Assembly: GCF_039555535.1 (NCBI RefSeq)
Contig: NZ_CP154630.1
Span: 4,167,001-4,231,000, forward strand
DNA: 64,000 bases
Source of the DNA: Stenotrophomonas maltophilia
Lineage (GTDB): Bacteria > Pseudomonadota > Gammaproteobacteria > Xanthomonadales > Xanthomonadaceae
Direction: 5' to 3'
Below, in pieces: positions 1 through 8,475 of the stretch. Numbering within the stretch: position 1 is the stretch's first letter; each line of letters starts with the position of its first letter. A model generated the notes under the pieces. The model did no database searches. It was not told where the DNA came from and saw only the letters and a list, made by a program, of their open reading frames with translations. A program made the position numbers and the translations under genes.

Positions 1-311
1 GCCGCATCCAAGTCCGTGCCTGTGTGGAACACGAGAGTGACGTTGGAGTAGCCCGCATAGGAGTAGCTCTGCGAGGTGAAGTACTGCAGGCCATCAATGC
101 CAACCAGCTTCGTCTCGATGATCTGGGTCACCGTTTCCTCGATGGTGCGCGCGGAAGCCCCGGGATGGATGGCGGTCAACGTAATCGTGGGAGGCGCAAC
201 GTCGGGGTACATCTCCACCGGCAGCTTGAACAGGGCCAGGCCGCCGGCGAGCATGATGATGATGGCGATGACCCATGCAAAGATGGGTCGATCGATGAAA
301 AAGCGTGCCAT
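1..311 (-). CDS. RND efflux pump inner-membrane subunit, N-terminal part (second system, cut by window edge)
   Basis: This is the first ~103 residues of an RND-family proton/drug antiporter; the rest lies beyond the window start. It begins [18 protein letters not shown], the usual cytoplasmic edge and first membrane helix of AcrB/MexB-type pumps, and then enters the porter domain. The first ~31 codons match smeE exactly at the DNA level. After KLPV the protein diverges to roughly half identity: SmeE has [11 protein letters not shown] where this protein has [14 protein letters not shown]. It is therefore a different pump carrying an SmeE-like 5' end. It follows the fusion-protein gene at 324-1520 by 12 bp, the same spacing as smeD-smeE. 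The family and partnership are clear; the substrate and any outer-membrane partner cannot be read here. Confidence 0.85.
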
Positions 312-1381
312 GGGGTTCTCCGCTTACTTCGCGCCGCCGGCCGGGGCCGCAGGCTGGGCGGCCGCCGCCGGCTTGGCCGGCGCAGCGCCCTTCTCGGTGG
401 CTTTGACCGGCATGCCGGGGCCGATCTTCTGCAGGCCTTCGACGATGACCTTGTCGCCGGCCTTCAGACCGTCCTCGACCAGCCACTTGTCACCGACCGT
501 GCGGCTGACCTTGACCGGGCGCACCTCAACCTTGTTGTCCTTGCCGACCACCATCGCGGTGGTGTCGCCCTTCGGATCGCGGGCGATGCCCTGCATCGGC
601 ACCAGCACTGCATCGCTGCGCACGCCGCCGCCGATCACTGCGCGCACATAGGTGCCCGGCATCAGCAGGCCGTCCGGGTTGTCCACCTTCACGCGCAGGC
701 CGAAGCTGCCGGTAGCCGGATCGACGCTGACTTCGGAGAACTCCAGCGTGCCCTTGTGCTCGAAGGTGCTGCCGTCTTCCATCAGGATGCTGACCGGCAG
801 CGACTGATTGTCCTGCAGGCGGCCGGCGGCCAGTTCGCGGCGCAGCTGCAGCAGCTCGGCCGAGGACTGGGTCAGGTCGACGTAGATCGGGTCCAGCTGC
901 TGCACGGTGGCCAGTGCATTGGCCTGGCCGGCGCTGACCAGCGCACCCTGGGTGACGCTGGACTTGCCGATGCGACCGCTGATCGGCGCGACGATGCGGG
1001 CATAGCCCAGGGTGACGTTGGCCGCATCCAGCGACGCCTTGGCGGCACCGACATCAGCCTCGGCCTGCTTCTGCGCAGCCACGGCGTTTTCCAGATCCTG
1101 CTGGCTGACCGCGTCGACCTTGGCCAGCTCGGTGATGCGCTTGGCGCTGAGGCGGGCAGCGTTGGCGGTGGCTTCGGCACGGGCCAGCTGGGCGCGGGCG
1201 CTGTTGGCCTGGGCGCGGTAGCTGGCGTCCTCGATCTGGTACAGCGGCTCGCCGGCCTTGACCATGCCGCCCTCGGTGAACAGGCGCTTGGCGACGATGC
1301 CGTTCACCTGCGGGCGCACTTCGGCGACCAGGAAGGCATTGGTACGGCCCGGCAGTTCGCGGGTCAGGCCCACGGTCTCGG
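217..1381. repeat. 1165-bp direct repeat, copy A (MFP body plus start of second RND gene)
   Basis: This stretch matches 6302-7466 in the same orientation at an offset of 6085 bp. I found no mismatch by comparing the DNA at both ends and the translations of all frames between. The left edge is sharp: three mismatches at 214-216, then partial similarity. The right edge is a single mismatch at 1382, then 14 matching bases, then divergence. Confidence 0.92.
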
Positions 1382-1520
1382 GCTTCAGCGTGACCATCTG
1401 CACTGCCATCGGTCCGGGATCGTGGCCCATCGCGGAAGGCTGGCAGGCAACCAGCAGGATGCTGCTGACGAAAATCAGCCAGCGGCGGGAACTGCACAAC
1501 AGGGAATGGGACAAGCACAT
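324..1520 (-). CDS. RND efflux periplasmic membrane-fusion lipoprotein, second copy (SmeD body on a different signal peptide)
   Basis: A 398-residue HlyD/AcrA-type adaptor linking an RND pump to an outer-membrane channel. The start at 1520 has a GGAG motif upstream and gives a lipoprotein signal with lipobox LLVA-C26. Residues 1-46 (MCLSHSLLCSSRRW...) are unlike SmeD apart from a few positions next to the junction, but residues 48-398 equal SmeD residues 44-394 with no difference seen. The only substitution at the junction is Pro47 versus Ser43 in SmeD. The order of parts is signal, lipoyl/barrel-sandwich half-motif, alpha-hairpin coiled coil (about 95-160), beta-barrel and an Ala/Pro-rich tail. 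The gene lies 270 bp after smeF and is separated from it by two hairpins, so it probably has its own promoter. The chimeric structure points to recent recombination or gene conversion with smeD. Confidence 0.9.
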   Translation of the reverse strand: MCLSHSLLCSSRRWLIFVSSILLVACQPSAMGHDPGPMAVQMVTLKPETVGLTRELPGRTNAFLVAEVRPQVNGIVAKRLFTEGGMVKAGEPLYQIEDASYRAQANSARAQLARAEATANAARLSAKRITELAKVDAVSQQDLENAVAAQKQAEADVGAAKASLDAANVTLGYARIVAPISGRIGKSSVTQGALVSAGQANALATVQQLDPIYVDLTQSSAELLQLRRELAAGRLQDNQSLPVSILMEDGSTFEHKGTLEFSEVSVDPATGSFGLRVKVDNPDGLLMPGTYVRAVIGGGVRSDAVLVPMQGIARDPKGDTTAMVVGKDNKVEVRPVKVSRTVGDKWLVEDGLKAGDKVIVEGLQKIGPGMPVKATEKGAAPAKPAAAAQPAAPAGGAK

Positions 1521-1664
1521 CGCTCCACGCGTCAGGTGCGGAGCCCCCGTCGCCTCCCGTGGCGATCGATGCAGCGTTCCGCCACGCGATGAGACGGCGA
1601 GACAGCTGCAATAGGTATGAGGAAAGTTGTATCTAGCCCTGAAAGCAAGCCAGGCCTTCAGCCG

Positions 1665-1680
1665 CAGGAAAGCTTTCCTG
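1665..1680. repeat. 16-bp perfect palindrome upstream of the second MFP gene
   Basis: CAGGAAAGCTTTCCTG is a perfect palindrome 145 bp upstream of the start codon at 1520. It could be an operator for the second efflux pair. No regulator gene for that pair is present in the window, so this is only a suggestion. Confidence 0.35.
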
Positions 1681-1722
1681 CTGGAACGTGATCGACAGGG
1701 GATGAGATCCCCTCGAAACGGA

Positions 1723-1747
1723 CAATGCCGGCCAGTGGCCGGCATTG
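1723..1747. repeat. GC-rich hairpin (CAATGCCGGCC / GGCCGGCATTG)
   Basis: A perfect short inverted repeat between smeF and the second MFP gene, just beyond the SMAG element at 1763. The two hairpins together probably stop or process the smeDEF transcript. Confidence 0.5.
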
Positions 1748-1762
1748 CCGTCGATCACCCAG

Positions 1763-1789
1763 GTAGAGCCGGCCGTTGGCCGGCTCTAC
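1763..1789. repeat. SMAG-type palindrome after smeF
   Basis: GTAGAGCCGGCC, a short loop, then GGCCGGCTCTAC. The GTAG start and CTAC end are the signature of the S. maltophilia SMAG repeat family. It begins immediately after the smeF stop codon (reading on the minus strand). Confidence 0.85.
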
Positions 1790-1790
1790 C

Positions 1791-3176
1791 TCAGCTGCGC
1801 TCGTGCCAGCCGCCGCCCAGTACCTTGTACAGGGTGATGCGGTTGGACTGCTGGGCCAGTTCGGCCTGCAGGCGGGTCTGCTGCGCGGTATAGGCGGTGC
1901 GCCGTGCATCGAGCAGGGTGACGAAGCTGTCCAGGCCGGCGTCGTAGCGTGCCTGCGACAGGCGATTGGCCTGTTCGGCGGCTTCCACCAGGCGCTGCTG
2001 CGCGCTCACCTGCTCATCCAGGCTGACATTCAGCGCGAGTGCGTCCGCGGTTTCGCGGAAACCCACCTGGATCGACTTCTCGTACTGCGCCAGCGCGATA
2101 TCGCGATCCGCATTGGCGATGGAAAGGTTCGCGCGCAGCTTGCCACCCTGGAAGATCGGCAGGGTGATCTTCGGCAGGAAGCTCCACACGCGGGTGCCGC
2201 TGTCGAACAGGTTGGACAGTTCATTCGAGCCACTGCCGATGCTGCCGGTCAGCGAGATGCTCGGGAAGAACGCTGCACGTGCCGCACCGATGTTGGCGTT
2301 GGCGGCCAGCAGCTGGTGTTCTGCAGCCATGATGTCCGGGCGCTGCAGCAGCACGTCGCTGGGCAGGTCGGCCGGCGGCGGGGCCAACGCCAGCAGCTGC
2401 GGTTCGATGCTGTCCGGCAGCAGCGCCGGATCCAGCTGGCCTCCGGCCAGCAGCGCCAGCGCGTTGCGGTCCTGGGCCAGCTGGCCGCGCAGACGTGCGG
2501 CATCCGTGCGCGCGGTTTCCACCAGCGTACGGGTCTGGGTCAGTTCCAGCGCCGAACTACCGCCACGTTCATGGCGGGCTTCGGCCAGACGCAGCGAATC
2601 CTCGTAGGTCTTCAGCGTCGCTTCGGCGATCTTCAGCCGCTGCGCGTCGGCCCCGTAGGTCAGCCACGCGGTGGCGGTCTCGGCCACCAGGCTCAGCTGC
2701 GCGTTGCGGCGGTTGGCGGCCACGGCGAAGTACTGTTGCAGTGCCGCTTCGCTGAGGTTGCGCACGCGGCCGAACAGGTCCAGCTCGAACTCGGCCACGC
2801 CGACGCCGGCAGTGAACTGCTCCGTGACGCCGGCATCGGTACCGCGACGCTCCATCTGGCCGGTGACGGCCACGCCGGGCACGCGATCGGCGCGCTGCAC
2901 GCGGTACTGGCCGCGCGCGCGTTCAACATTGAGCACGGCCACGCGCAGGTCGCGGTTGTTCTGCAGCGACTGCTCGATAACCTGCTGCAGGCGTGGATCG
3001 GTGAAGAAGTCCCGCCAGCCGACGGCGGCGACATCGGCCACCTGGCCCTGTGCAGCTTCGGCCGGCCACTGCGCTGGGATGGCAGGTGCAACGGCGGTGT
3101 TTTTAGGCGCCAGGGTGGAGCAACCGGCCAGCGCAAGCGCGGCGGCCAGGGATACAGCAAGAGAAGAGAATTTCAT
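1791..3176 (-). CDS. smeF: Outer-membrane channel lipoprotein of the SmeDEF multidrug pump
   Basis: A 461-residue TolC/OprM-type factor that forms the outer-membrane exit duct for the SmeD-SmeE pump. The start MKFSSLAVSLAAALALAGC gives a lipoprotein signal (lipobox LALAG-C), with AAGGTG upstream. Two outer-membrane-efflux repeats follow, with the long Ala/Gln/Arg-rich helices expected of the periplasmic tunnel (for example ARHERGGSSALELTQTRT and ARYDAGLDSFVTLLDARR). It is the third gene after smeD and smeE and is separated from smeE by a 97-bp gap holding a SMAG double hairpin, so its expression may be uncoupled from smeDE. Length and position fit the known S. maltophilia smeF. Confidence 0.95.
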   Translation of the reverse strand: MKFSSLAVSLAAALALAGCSTLAPKNTAVAPAIPAQWPAEAAQGQVADVAAVGWRDFFTDPRLQQVIEQSLQNNRDLRVAVLNVERARGQYRVQRADRVPGVAVTGQMERRGTDAGVTEQFTAGVGVAEFELDLFGRVRNLSEAALQQYFAVAANRRNAQLSLVAETATAWLTYGADAQRLKIAEATLKTYEDSLRLAEARHERGGSSALELTQTRTLVETARTDAARLRGQLAQDRNALALLAGGQLDPALLPDSIEPQLLALAPPPADLPSDVLLQRPDIMAAEHQLLAANANIGAARAAFFPSISLTGSIGSGSNELSNLFDSGTRVWSFLPKITLPIFQGGKLRANLSIANADRDIALAQYEKSIQVGFRETADALALNVSLDEQVSAQQRLVEAAEQANRLSQARYDAGLDSFVTLLDARRTAYTAQQTRLQAELAQQSNRITLYKVLGGGWHERS

Positions 3177-3200
3177 GGCGACACCTTGGGGGTCACGGTG

Positions 3201-3264
3201 GTAGCGCCGGGCCATGCCCGGCGGCTACGCGGTGAGGCATCCGCCGGGCACGGCCCGGCGCTAC
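3201..3264. repeat. SMAG-type double palindrome between smeE and smeF
   Basis: GTAGCGCCGGGCCATGCCCGGCGGCTAC-like arm followed by an inverted second arm ending CGGCGCTAC. It lies in the transcribed gap between smeE and smeF and can fold into a strong RNA hairpin inside the operon message. Confidence 0.85.
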
Positions 3265-3273
3265 CGGATTTCA

Positions 3274-6200
3274 TCACGTCGTGGATTTGCGCTTGAACAC
3301 GCGCTGCACCACCACGAAGAACAGCGGCACGAAGAACACGCCCAGTACCGTGCCGACGATCATGCCGCCGAGCACGCCGGTGCCGATCGCCTGCTTGGCG
3401 CCTGAGCCGGCACCGGTGGAGATCGCCAGCGGTACCACGCCCATGCCGAAGGCCAGCGACGTCATCACGATCGGGCGCAAGCGGTCGCGCACCGCGTGCA
3501 TGATCGACTCGATCAGGCCTGCGCCCTTCTCCAGGTTCTCCTTGGCGAACTCCACGATCAGGATCGCGTTCTTGCTGGTCAGGCCCACCGTGGTCAGCAT
3601 CGCCACTTGGAAGTAGATGTCGCGTTCCAGGCCCTTGAAGGTGTTGGCCAGCACCGCGCCGAGAATACCCAGCGGGGCCGCCAGCAGCACCGCCGTCGGC
3701 ACGCTCCAGCTCTCATACATCGCGGCCAGGCACAGGAACACGATCATCAGCGACAGCGTGTACAGCAGCGGCGTCTGCGAGCCGGCCTGACGCTCCTGGT
3801 AGGACATCGCCGTCCACTCGATGCCGAAGCCCGCCGGCAGCTGCTTGGCCAGCTGCTCGATCTCGGCCATGGCATCACCGGAGGCGACACCCGGGGCCGG
3901 TTCGCCCTGGATTTCCATCGCCGACACACCGTTGTAGCGCTCCAGGCGCGGCGAACCGTAATCCCAGTGCTTGGTGGCGAACGCACTGAACGGCACCATC
4001 TCACCCTTGTCGTTCTTCACGGACCAGAGGTCGAAGTCCTCCGGGACCATGCGGAACGGCTGGTCGGCCTGCACGAACACGCGCTTGACGCGGCCGCGAT
4101 CGACGAAGTCATCGATGTACGAGCTGCCCCATGCGGCAGCCAGGGTGCCGTTGATCTGGTCGATCGACAGCCCCAGCGAGGTCGCCTTGGCCGCGTCGAT
4201 GTCGATGCGGAACTGCGGCGTGTCCTCCTGGCCGTTCGGGCGCACGTTGGCCAGCTTCTTGCTGCCCGCAGCGAGGCCCAGCAGCTGGTTGCGTGCGGCC
4301 ACCAGTGCCTCGTGGCCCTGGCCGCTGTTGTCCTTCAGGAAGAAGGTGTAACCCGAAGCGGTACCCAGTTCCGGAATGGCCGGCGGCGGGAAGGCGAAGA
4401 TGAAGGCATCCTTGATCTGGCCCAGTGCCGCCATTGCGCGACCGGTGATCGGCATCACGCCATTGTTGGCGTCACGCTCGCTCCAGTCCTTCAGCTTGAC
4501 GAACGCCATGCCCGCGTTCTGGCCCATGCCGGCGAAGCTGAAGCCCTGCACCGAGAACACCGAGTCCACCGCATCCTTTTCGTTCTGCAGGAAGTGGTTT
4601 TCCAGCGCCGCGATCGATTCCAGCGTGCGTTCCTGGGTGGCACCCACCGGCGCCTGCACCAGCGCCATCAGCACGCCCTGGTCTTCGTTGGGCAGGAACG
4701 AGCTTGGCAGGCGCACGAACAGCACGCCCATCAGCACGAACAGCGCCGCAACGATGCCCATGAAGCGCCACGGACGATGGATGATGCCGCGCACGCCACG
4801 CTGGTAGCTTTCGCTGGTGCGGTCGAAACCGCGGTTGAAGCCGTTGAAGAAACGACCGGCCAGGCCGCGATGGGCAACATGGTGCTCGCCCTTCTTCAGC
4901 GGCTTGAGCATGGTCGCGCACAGCGCCGGGGTCAGCACGATCGCGACCAGCACCGACAATGCCATCGCCGAGACGATCGTGGCCGAGAACTGGCGGTAGA
5001 TCACGCCGGTGGAACCGCTCATGAAGGCCATCGGCACGAACACCGCCGACAGCACCAGGCCGATGCCCACCAGCGCGCCAGTGATCTGGCCCATCGACTT
5101 GCGGGTAGCCTCGAGCGGAGACAGCCCTTCCTCGGACATGATGCGTTCGACGTTCTCCACCACCACGATGGCATCGTCCACCAGCAGGCCGATCGCCAGC
5201 ACCATCGCGAACATGGTCAGCATGTTCACCGAGAAGCCCAGCATCGCCAGCACGCCGAAGGTACCCAGCAGCACCACCGGCACGGCGATGGTCGGGATCA
5301 GGGTGGCGCGGAAGTTCTGCAGGAACAGGTACATCACCACGAACACCAGCACGATCGCTTCGATCAGGGTCTGCACCACGCCCTTGATCGACACGCGCAC
5401 GAACGGGGTGGTGTCGTACGGGATCTCGGCCTTCAGCCCGGCCGGGAAGAAGCCCTTCATGTCTTCCAGCGCCGCATCCACGCCGGCGGCGGTATCCAGC
5501 GCGTTGGCGCCGGTGGCCAGGGTGACCGCCAGGCCGCTGGCCGGCTGGCCGTTGTAGCGGGTGACGAAGTCGTAGGACTCGGCACCCAGTTCGACGCGGG
5601 CGACATCGCCGAGGCGCAGTTCGGCACCGTCCTGCGCGCCGCGCACGATGATGTTGCGGAACTGCTCCGGGGTCTGCAGGCGCGACTGCGCGTTGATGGT
5701 GGCGTTGAGCTGCTGGCCCTTCACCGACGGCGCACCGCCGAGCTGGCCGATGGCCACCTGGGCATTCTGTGCCTTCACCGCCGCGGTCACTTCGGCAACC
5801 GACAGGCCGTAGGTGTGCAGCTTGTTCGGGTCCAGCCAGATGCGCATCGCGTACTTGCCGCCGAACACCTGGATGTTGCCCACGCCCGGCACGCGGCTCA
5901 GGCGATCAACGACATTCGAACCGACATAGTCGGCGATGTCGTTGGCGTCCATGCTGCCGTTCTCGGACACGAACGCGATGACGTTCAGGAAGCCCGAGCT
6001 GGACTTGGCCACGTTGATGCCCTGCCGCTGCACTTCCTGCGGCAGCAGCGGCATGGCCAGCTGCAACTTGTTCTGCACCTGCACCTGGGCGATGTCCGGG
6101 TTGGTGCCGCTCTCGAAGGTCAGGGTAATGGTGGCCTGGCCGTTGGACGAGCTGTTGGAGGAGAAGTAGATCAGGCCATCAAGGCCCTTCATGTTCTGCT

Positions 6201-6396
6201 CGATGATCTGCGTCACCGAGTCCTCGACCACCTTGGCCGATGCACCCGGGTAAGTTGCGCTGATTTCCACCGCCGGCGGCGCGACGTTGGGGTACATCGA
6301 GACCGGCAGCTTGAACAGGGCCAGGCCGCCGGCGAGCATGATGATGATGGCGATGACCCATGCAAAGATGGGTCGATCGATGAAAAAGCGTGCCAT
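3274..6396 (-). CDS. smeE: RND multidrug efflux pump inner-membrane subunit SmeE
   Basis: A 1040-residue hydrophobe/amphiphile RND antiporter that captures drugs in the periplasm and inner membrane and drives them out through SmeD-SmeF using the proton gradient. It has the full AcrB layout: helix 1 ([18 protein letters not shown]), a porter domain, helices 2-6 with the proton-relay pair in [18 protein letters not shown], a second porter half, and helices 8-12 with the conserved Lys in [16 protein letters not shown]. It starts 12 bp after the smeD stop. The first ~95 bp belong to the direct repeat shared with the RND gene at the window start. In S. maltophilia, SmeDEF overproduction is known to give resistance to quinolones, tetracyclines, chloramphenicol and other drugs. 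Confidence 0.97.
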
Positions 6397-7466
6397 GGGG
6401 TTCTCCGCTTACTTCGCGCCGCCGGCCGGGGCCGCAGGCTGGGCGGCCGCCGCCGGCTTGGCCGGCGCAGCGCCCTTCTCGGTGGCTTTGACCGGCATGC
6501 CGGGGCCGATCTTCTGCAGGCCTTCGACGATGACCTTGTCGCCGGCCTTCAGACCGTCCTCGACCAGCCACTTGTCACCGACCGTGCGGCTGACCTTGAC
6601 CGGGCGCACCTCAACCTTGTTGTCCTTGCCGACCACCATCGCGGTGGTGTCGCCCTTCGGATCGCGGGCGATGCCCTGCATCGGCACCAGCACTGCATCG
6701 CTGCGCACGCCGCCGCCGATCACTGCGCGCACATAGGTGCCCGGCATCAGCAGGCCGTCCGGGTTGTCCACCTTCACGCGCAGGCCGAAGCTGCCGGTAG
6801 CCGGATCGACGCTGACTTCGGAGAACTCCAGCGTGCCCTTGTGCTCGAAGGTGCTGCCGTCTTCCATCAGGATGCTGACCGGCAGCGACTGATTGTCCTG
6901 CAGGCGGCCGGCGGCCAGTTCGCGGCGCAGCTGCAGCAGCTCGGCCGAGGACTGGGTCAGGTCGACGTAGATCGGGTCCAGCTGCTGCACGGTGGCCAGT
7001 GCATTGGCCTGGCCGGCGCTGACCAGCGCACCCTGGGTGACGCTGGACTTGCCGATGCGACCGCTGATCGGCGCGACGATGCGGGCATAGCCCAGGGTGA
7101 CGTTGGCCGCATCCAGCGACGCCTTGGCGGCACCGACATCAGCCTCGGCCTGCTTCTGCGCAGCCACGGCGTTTTCCAGATCCTGCTGGCTGACCGCGTC
7201 GACCTTGGCCAGCTCGGTGATGCGCTTGGCGCTGAGGCGGGCAGCGTTGGCGGTGGCTTCGGCACGGGCCAGCTGGGCGCGGGCGCTGTTGGCCTGGGCG
7301 CGGTAGCTGGCGTCCTCGATCTGGTACAGCGGCTCGCCGGCCTTGACCATGCCGCCCTCGGTGAACAGGCGCTTGGCGACGATGCCGTTCACCTGCGGGC
7401 GCACTTCGGCGACCAGGAAGGCATTGGTACGGCCCGGCAGTTCGCGGGTCAGGCCCACGGTCTCGG
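6302..7466. repeat. 1165-bp direct repeat, copy B (smeD body plus start of smeE)
   Basis: This is the second copy of the repeat at 217-1381. It covers smeD codons 44-394, the 12-bp smeD-smeE gap and the first ~31 codons of smeE. Copies A and B bracket smeE and smeF. Confidence 0.92.
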
Positions 7467-7593
7467 ACTTCAGCGTGACCACAGTGACGTCACCCGGTCC
7501 CTGCTCGGGGGCCTGGGGTTGGCCGCCGCAGGCAGCCACGGTCGCGGCGATCGCCAGCGACAGTGCAAAGGGTCGGATTCGGCTCAGCAACAT
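6409..7593 (-). CDS. smeD: Membrane-fusion lipoprotein SmeD of the SmeDEF pump
   Basis: A 394-residue periplasmic adaptor. The start at 7593 gives MLLSRIRPFALSLAIAATVAAC, a lipoprotein signal with Cys22 as the lipidated residue. Biotinyl-lipoyl-like segments, an alpha-hairpin and a beta-barrel follow, and the tail is Ala/Pro-rich. It is the first gene of smeDEF, read divergently from smeT across a 222-bp gap that carries the SmeT operator. Codons 44-394 are duplicated without visible change at 324-1381. There is no strong Shine-Dalgarno next to this ATG, so a nearby alternative start is possible. Confidence 0.96.
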   Translation of the reverse strand: MLLSRIRPFALSLAIAATVAACGGQPQAPEQGPGDVTVVTLKSETVGLTRELPGRTNAFLVAEVRPQVNGIVAKRLFTEGGMVKAGEPLYQIEDASYRAQANSARAQLARAEATANAARLSAKRITELAKVDAVSQQDLENAVAAQKQAEADVGAAKASLDAANVTLGYARIVAPISGRIGKSSVTQGALVSAGQANALATVQQLDPIYVDLTQSSAELLQLRRELAAGRLQDNQSLPVSILMEDGSTFEHKGTLEFSEVSVDPATGSFGLRVKVDNPDGLLMPGTYVRAVIGGGVRSDAVLVPMQGIARDPKGDTTAMVVGKDNKVEVRPVKVSRTVGDKWLVEDGLKAGDKVIVEGLQKIGPGMPVKATEKGAAPAKPAAAAQPAAPAGGAK

Positions 7594-7815: not shown

Positions 7816-8475
7816 ATGGCCCGCAAGACCAAAGAGGACACCCAGGCAACCCGGGAAGGCATCCTTGACGCCGCCGAAGCCTGCTTCCATGAACACGGCG
7901 TGGCCCGTACCACGCTGGAGATGATCGGTGCCCGCGCCGGCTACACCCGCGGCGCGGTCTACTGGCACTTCAAGAACAAGAGCGAGGTGCTGGCCGCGAT
8001 CGTCGAGCGCGTGCACCTGCCCTTCATGCAGGAACTGGAGCGCACCTCGACCGACCAGCGCGACACCCCGGTGCACGACCTGCGCGCGGTGATGATCCAC
8101 TCGTTCATCGAACTGTCCGAGGACGAGCGCCTGCGCAAGACCATGGAGATCATGCTGCGCAGCGATGCCTCGGCCGACACCAAGGTGCTGACCGAGCTGC
8201 AGCAGGCCGGCTTCCGCGACGGACTGGAACGGATGGAGCGCGCCCTGCGCCGCGCCCGCGATCTGGGCCAGCTGCGCGAAGGCGCCGATCCGAAGATCGC
8301 CGCACGCATGCTGCACGCCACCGTGCTGGGCGTGCTGCACGGCGCGATGGTCGAACCGGAACTGATGGACCTCAAGCGCGATGGCATGCTCGCACTGGAC
8401 ATGACCCTGGCCGCCTACGTGAAGGACGGCGTGTTCGTGCCCGGCACCGTGCCCGAGCCGCTGCCCGAAGCGTGA
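7816..8475 (+). CDS. smeT: TetR/AcrR-family repressor of smeDEF
   Basis: A 219-residue TetR repressor. The N-terminal helix-turn-helix is at about residues 10-56 (ATREGILDAAEACFHEHGVARTTLEMIGARAGYTRGAVYWHFKNK cut across helices 1-4). The ligand-binding C-terminal half follows and resembles TtgR/AcrR. It is transcribed divergently from smeD and should repress both itself and smeDEF; in S. maltophilia, loss-of-function changes in smeT derepress the pump. The start at 7816 was chosen because it begins at the conserved MARKTKED and leaves the operator outside the coding region. No frameshift or stop is present, so the repressor appears intact here. Confidence 0.96.
   Translation: MARKTKEDTQATREGILDAAEACFHEHGVARTTLEMIGARAGYTRGAVYWHFKNKSEVLAAIVERVHLPFMQELERTSTDQRDTPVHDLRAVMIHSFIELSEDERLRKTMEIMLRSDASADTKVLTELQQAGFRDGLERMERALRRARDLGQLREGADPKIAARMLHATVLGVLHGAMVEPELMDLKRDGMLALDMTLAAYVKDGVFVPGTVPEPLPEA

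Follow-up and report, generated by a model that had tools for sequence, protein, structure and literature searches.

Among the described systems closest to the locus reported here is SmeDEF of Stenotrophomonas maltophilia, a tripartite HAE-1 pump of the resistance-nodulation-division (RND) type under the TetR repressor SmeT. SmeDEF is the resident operon in a stretch of 64,000 nucleotides (hereafter the window, G000:C1:4167001-4231000) from an S. maltophilia genome that forms a single contig of 4,830,894 bp. Directly downstream of it lies a second RND pump of two genes, an adaptor and a permease, parts of which appear to have been overwritten by smeDE, the resident operon thus serving as the tract donor. 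Unlike SmeDEF, this second pump has foreign porters, its own signal peptide and upstream DNA, and no channel gene.

Several described systems share individual features with this arrangement. The S. maltophilia complex carries strain-specific RND pumps such as EbyCAB, as well as bipartite pumps whose operons have no channel of their own, and some of these are horizontally acquired (PMC4607518); EbyCAB, however, is encoded on a genomic island together with a dedicated channel and regulator, neither of which accompanies the second pump. Laboratory RND chimeras (AcrB/AcrD, AcrB/MexB and MexB/MexY) assign specificity chiefly to the periplasmic portion (PMC10924465). Parts are likewise swapped between RND pumps here, but the exchange would be natural, would include the adaptor and would have taken place in two species. 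In Neisseria gonorrhoeae, recombination yields mosaic RND pump genes in the mosaic mtr alleles (PMC6083905), yet these come from other species, whereas the exchange considered here is between paralogues in one genome and confined to the adaptor and membrane domain. Paralogue gene conversion and acquired RND pumps are each already known. No conversion with smeDE is described for accessory pumps in the accessible part of PMC4607518, the term 'gene conversion' is absent from the accessible part of PMC5663151 on RND paralogues, and among the matches listed from the open-access literature nothing concerns domain-limited conversion between RND paralogues.

We consider it quite probable that the locus arose through gene conversion confined to the adaptor and the membrane domain, so that a substrate-binding module of acquired origin would now sit on a chassis of resident type. 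An earlier note on this DNA had pointed to an identical repeat of 1165 bp, 6085 bp apart, with different flanks, and base-by-base comparison bears this out. The two copies (tract 1; Table 1) match at an offset of 6085 bp with zero mismatches, the adjoining base differs between them at both ends, and beyond the repeat ungapped identity drops to 58% in the left flank (200 bp) and to 47% in the right flank (120 bp). It is the sole exact direct repeat of at least 40 bp found in the window, and given its length and such flanks we do not regard chance as a candidate explanation. The recipient copy covers the second adaptor from codon 47 onwards, including the stop, and continues into the second permease as far as codon 32; the donor copy, likewise read on the minus strand, takes in the body of smeD and the first 32 codons of smeE. 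The note had equated the whole mature part of the second adaptor with SmeD. This is true from codon 47 on, and residues 27-47, which follow the lipobox Cys26, lie outside the tract. Its description of the remainder of the second RND gene as different likewise applies to the porter and docking parts, but not to two further tracts that match smeE. The comparison supports three refinements: the conversion includes membrane parts of the permease, its direction is from smeDE to the other pump, and about 20 mature adaptor residues are unconverted.

Alignment of one operon to the other revealed high-identity blocks with abrupt edges. Segment scoring placed near-identical sequence at second-permease codons 1-32 (100%), 336-565 (688 nt, 99.1%; tract 2) and 914-947 (102 nt, 96.1%; tract 3). 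Mapped by alignment onto AcrB, with the domain, transmembrane (TM) and pocket residue numbers of that protein, TM1 is 100% and TM2-TM7 99% identical in nucleotides, with the same codon used for 99-100% of identical residues. The porter and docking parts stand at 57-68% nucleotide identity with 40-55% same codons, and the periplasmic domains of the second permease share 45-60% protein identity with SmeE.

Functional constraint and codon bias, with no conversion at all, might be invoked for such likeness in the adaptor and TM parts, as TM blocks are conserved between RND paralogues and GC content at third codon positions (GC3) is high. We give this next to no probability. Same-codon use in 40-codon bins is 97-100% in tract 2 as against 30-76% in porter bins, and the tract edges are abrupt. 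Furthermore, functional constraint alone is insufficient for the tracts because the corresponding pair of permeases in another Stenotrophomonas genome, G065, reaches, without conversion, only 79% nucleotide identity over TM2-7, with 71% of codons the same. The sharp edges are accompanied by synonymous identity far above that of the flanks, as is expected of gene conversion; the further hallmark, closest affinity to the paralogue of the same genome, was found for tracts 1 and 2 and not for the C-terminal block.

Comparison with relatives indicates that the second pump was inserted. Relative to one of them (G024), 4561 bp (G000:C1:4164160-4168720) stand in place of 12 bp, and all but about 250 bp of them belong to the two pump genes. 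None of the 19 other Stenotrophomonas species compared has a second pump at its smeDEF locus (20 regions were fetched, of which one proved to be the second pump of G065). In all 19, smeF is followed within 1.9-2.9 kb by a ubiE-type gene and then a peptidase gene. The insertion contains no integrase, transposase, regulator or mobile-element gene, and no target-site duplication was seen at its junctions with G024; it thus lacks the marks of an element borne, as is EbyCAB, by an integrative and conjugative element or a transposon. As a side observation, the smeE frame of G024 (L061:10898-13231) is open only from about codon 267 (777 aa), which may reflect an interruption of the gene or an error in the sequence.

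We reject simple tandem duplication in view of the differing flanks, porters of about 50% protein identity and the empty site in the 19 relatives compared. The preference of the earlier note for gene conversion or recombination between related operons over such a duplication is upheld by the insertion, the three-tract mosaic, the trees and a similar case in a further genome, G008. Diverged second adaptors at this locus in many genomes, which the note had named as grounds for abandoning its view, were looked for and do not occur among the 19 relatives.

The perfect identity of tract 1 could also suggest an assembly artefact in which two similar operons were collapsed or mis-joined. We find this highly implausible, as the genome is a single contig, tracts 2 and 3 are not identical, all frames stay open and the comparison with G024 yields a clean empty site; a collapse could erase at most a few tract 1 differences. 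Moreover, G008 presents the same pattern with both loci on one contig and with 21 differences in the adaptor.

A second pump is not a genus-wide property. Two SmeE-like permeases were found in only four of 91 Stenotrophomonas genomes (G000, that of the window, with G008, G046 and G065; protein search, E <= 1e-95), of which three are grouped by the porter tree. One genome per species was sampled, and the threshold would miss more distant pumps. G008 has its second pump at 1.50 Mb on a contig of 4.49 Mb whose smeDEF is at 4.46 Mb. The two loci are thus separated by about 3 Mb, or by 1.5 Mb along the shorter arc should this contig be circular, and the neighbours, judged by their reading frames, differ. 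The accessory permease of G008 matches its own smeE at codons 1-41 (100%), 349-486 (95.4%) and 877-991 (98.3%), which amounts to TM1 and portions of the two membrane blocks, while its adaptor, past the signal peptide and linker, is 96-100% identical per bin to its own smeD, with the 21 differences mentioned above. The adaptor tract starts at nearly the same place in both genomes. The permease breakpoints are unlike, and for this reason the two conversion events look separate. The G065 pump has no near-identical tract against smeE, its best segment being 219 nt at 90.9% in the TM core, and its adaptor shares 54% with SmeD of the window and about 64% at best in DNA with any smeD.

In a tree of porter sequences (27 author-chosen permeases of 57), the second pumps of G000, G008 and G065 group outside SmeE with full support in the Shimodaira-Hasegawa-like approximate likelihood-ratio test (SH-aLRT 100). 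The second pump is thus not placed among SmeDEF orthologues, although the branches are long. Shared pocket residues further support the grouping of the three accessory porters. The two-gene pumps of G073, G066 and G010, despite an apparent relationship, are disfavoured as members of this group (approximately unbiased test, p-AU 0.017).

Other genomes offered observations of their own. The pumps of G073, G066 and G010 (L128, L129 and L131) are of a different two-gene RND kind, 57-60% identical to SmeE and forming their own group. The two SmeE-like permeases of G046 (L112 and L113) are 87% and 84% identical to SmeE of the window; they are 72-98% alike per full 40-residue bin, with no sharp mosaic and one stretch of 222 nt at 91.9%. 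G085 is the only one of the 91 genomes without a match for the SmeE porter and the SmeD tract at the thresholds used. Among 375 genomes of the family, no second copy as close as that of the window was found for the tracts, a weak negative since no more than two candidates in each genome entered the scoring. In another genus of this family, three genomes (G198, G220 and G752) each have two places that are 78-86% identical to the smeE TM block.

Three lines of evidence lead us to take smeDE as the donor that overwrote parts of a foreign pump. Firstly, smeDE is orthologous end to end with smeDE of other species, except for the interrupted smeE of G024. Secondly, GC3 is lower in the accessory porters: that of the second permease is 0.72 and 0.77 in the porter parts but reaches 0.93 in the TM core, as against 0.91, 0.88 and 0.93 in the same segments of smeE, and in G008 the porter parts have 0.76 and 0.75 in the accessory gene versus 0.92 and 0.91 in smeE. 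Thirdly, of the 10 differences in tract 2, seven are private to the second pump when compared with other smeE.

The opposite history, a duplication of smeDE after which foreign DNA took the place of the porter segments, the promoter and the signal peptide in the copy, gains some appeal from the adjacency of cassette and smeDEF in the genome of the window, and from accessory porters that are barely more alike mutually than they are to SmeE. It is nevertheless very unlikely: the G008 pump occupies a different chromosomal site and has different neighbours, the G065 pump belongs to the same porter group yet has no near-identical tracts and an adaptor of only 54%, and the signal peptide, linker and permease end of the second pump are also unlike smeDE.

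Trees of the tracts (35 author-chosen rows of 57-58 extracted) point to a donor within the same genome. In the tract 1 tree the second copy is identical to smeD/E of its own genome (100%, whereas no other species of the genus exceeds 96%), and in the tract 2 tree it is sister to its own smeE (SH-aLRT 86; 98.7% versus 97.5% for the next best). These same values argue against the possibility that the chimera arose by conversion with the smeDE of a different strain or closely related species and reached this site afterwards as a finished unit. We regard this history as improbable, though it would accommodate three of the 10 tract 2 differences, which are bases seen in smeE of other species, 11 of the 21 adaptor differences in G008, which are common to smeD of one of five relatives, and a C-terminal block that is nearest to G090.

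For the foreign porter itself no known source was found. Its best matches elsewhere reach 54% among the 297 genomes sampled from the family, 51% beyond the family among the 369 genomes sampled from the class, and 49% on plasmids. A single-sequence search of wider genome contigs gave no match, and with a three-sequence porter alignment the best among the matches listed was a Lysobacter permease at 58%.

Conversion with smeDE does not appear to be a general habit of RND paralogues. For three other RND permeases of the same genome (L003, L004 and L006; a fourth, L005, was excluded for 39% identity and a wrong frame of 1478 aa), the own smeE ranked 5, 32 and 6 of 47 in the TM2-6 block, within 2% of the best match; homogenisation of all RND paralogues was thus not seen, since for none of the three was the own smeE the closest. 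Between different RND pumps of the genus, TM cores are roughly 77-83% identical in DNA, a likeness that may reflect constraint alone or repeated exchange and that offers a path for recombination in the TM core. Replacement of the adaptor in both species is harder to explain by homology alone because the unconverted adaptor of G065 reaches at best about 64% DNA identity with any smeD. Either a tract begun at TM1 or selection for a fitting adaptor would be an option.

A number of observations weigh against gene conversion from smeDE as we have set it out. The reading rests on assembled sequence from one genome per species. The grouping of accessory porters is open to challenge, as their branches are long (0.59-0.9), plain identity supports it weakly (59-61% for the named pairs), the PC2 segment of G065 is 61% identical to the second pump of the window and 60% to SmeE, and the G065 porter is in DNA nearest to an SmeE (65.3%). 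GC3 of the G065 porter parts is also less low, at 0.86 and 0.78 versus 0.91 and 0.92 in smeE. In G008, the TM2-7 block is converted only in part (83% nucleotide identity), and tract 1, in the segment compared, is 96.0% identical to its own smeD as against 95.7% to that of G007; its donor may have been an ancestor of G008, with a conversion that predates the species. In the genome of the window, the C-terminal block (codons 880-1010) is 84.7% identical to its own smeE and nearer to G090/G033 at 85.8%, and its conversion is, from these identities, older or partial. Two of the control paralogues, L003 and L006, come within 1% of their best match. Moreover, no part of RND pairs is better conserved than the TM blocks, so that conversion there may follow homology alone. 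Finally, there is no promoter-like site ahead of the second adaptor, and two strong hairpins separate it from smeF.

The insertion, the tracts and their domain limits, the compositional direction and the similar G008 case are all evident in the sequences, and suggest the following course of events. A two-gene RND cassette of adaptor and permease, of an accessory type to which pumps of three of the 91 sampled Stenotrophomonas species are assigned, would have been inserted directly downstream of smeDEF. Gene conversion, presumably of the RecA type, would then have copied resident smeDE pieces into it: one spanning the adaptor body and TM1, one the entire TM2-TM7 block, and one a small part of the C-terminal TM block. 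The domains with which the pump binds substrate and docks, porter and docking, would have remained foreign. The product would be a natural chimera that lacks its own channel and combines an SmeD-type adaptor with an SmeE-type proton motor and another binding pocket. It would probably assemble with SmeF (or TolC) by way of its SmeD-like adaptor body. Co-transcription with smeDEF is also predicted, by possible read-through into the cassette.

The predicted function of the chimera follows from the residues that were kept and those that were changed. The proton-relay residues D407, D408, K940, R971 and T978 (AcrB numbering) are all retained in the second permease, and the relay is kept in all three accessory pumps. 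Several pocket positions (AcrB 176, 279, 573, 617, 666 and 673) differ from SmeE and are mostly alike in the three. Because the pocket is changed, the relay is kept and laboratory chimeras locate specificity chiefly in the periplasmic part, the pump is expected to run on an SmeE motor, to dock through its SmeD-type adaptor to SmeF or TolC, and to export a substrate set unlike that of SmeE.

The gene order at the locus is smeT on the plus strand, followed on the minus strand by smeD, smeE, smeF, the second adaptor and the second permease (Table 1); the sme names are assigned from gene order together with family matches. The order smeT-smeDEF is kept in 19/19 of the other Stenotrophomonas species checked. 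Both adaptors, smeE and smeF pass the curated cut-offs of the general RND models for adaptor, permease and channel (TIGR01730, TIGR00915 and TIGR01845). The second permease, of 1037 codons, extends beyond the window to G000:C1:4164198 (L009:8199-11312, where L009 position = window + 11001), so that most of the gene lies outside it; its residues 1-1036 align to AcrB chains, that is, over the full length expected of an HAE-1 permease. Its adaptor is encoded directly upstream, as in tripartite pumps, and no channel gene of its own was found within the insertion. The two hairpins between smeF and the insertion (window 1721..1790) are GC-rich; neither a T-run terminator nor a sigma-70-like promoter was found in window 1380-1900. 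A similar hairpin also separates smeE from smeF. This long hairpin (window 3199-3268) is one member of a dispersed palindromic repeat, with 43 of 66 matches there and several places counted on both strands, and resembles SMAG elements.

Table 1. Features of the smeDEF locus and the adjoining second pump (window coordinates)
Feature	Position	Strand	Basis
Tract 1, recipient copy: second adaptor codon 47 to stop and second permease codons 1-32	217..1381	-	exact repeat of 6302-7466
Tract 1, donor copy: body of smeD plus the first 32 codons of smeE	6302..7466	-	exact repeat and tree
Tract 2, donor side: AcrB-equivalent TM2-TM7 block, matching second-permease codons 336-565 (L009:9619-10306)	4706..5393	-	99.1% identity
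Tract 3, donor side: short C-terminal patch	3556..3657	-	102 nt, 96.1%
Right part of the 4561-bp insertion	1..1720	.	empty-site comparison with G024
Second permease, N-terminal part	1..311	-	AcrB chains as the best PDB matches
Second adaptor (398 aa): SmeD body behind a lipoprotein signal and linker of its own	324..1520	-	open reading frame; TIGR01730 326 bits, cut-off 94.9
smeF, outer-membrane channel	1791..3215	-	open reading frame, family match, conserved in relatives
smeE, resident RND permease	3274..6396	-	open reading frame, family match, conserved in relatives
smeD, resident adaptor	6409..7593	-	open reading frame, family match, conserved in relatives
TetR-type repressor in smeT position, divergent from smeD	7816..8475	+	TetR-type models below curated cut-offs; conserved in 19/19 relatives

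Taken together, these results suggest a conversion whose limits track the domains of the pump and which is seen in two species at different chromosomal places, a kind not encountered among the matches listed from the open-access literature. The locus offers a natural counterpart of the classic laboratory domain swap, and illustrates one way in which a newcomer that lacks a channel might be adapted to a resident pump. A practical consequence is that smeD-directed polymerase chain reaction, short-read assembly and expression assays can confuse the two operons. It is tempting to speculate, though only tentatively, that Stenotrophomonas repeatedly re-chassis a travelling RND cassette, with the resident smeDE of each receiving genome overwriting the adaptor and proton motor under selection for fit to SmeF and native assembly, and the porters being kept as an exchangeable module for substrate recognition. 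The second pump may be regarded as a natural test of which parts can be exchanged between RND pumps, the adaptor and the motor, and which must stay, the porter.

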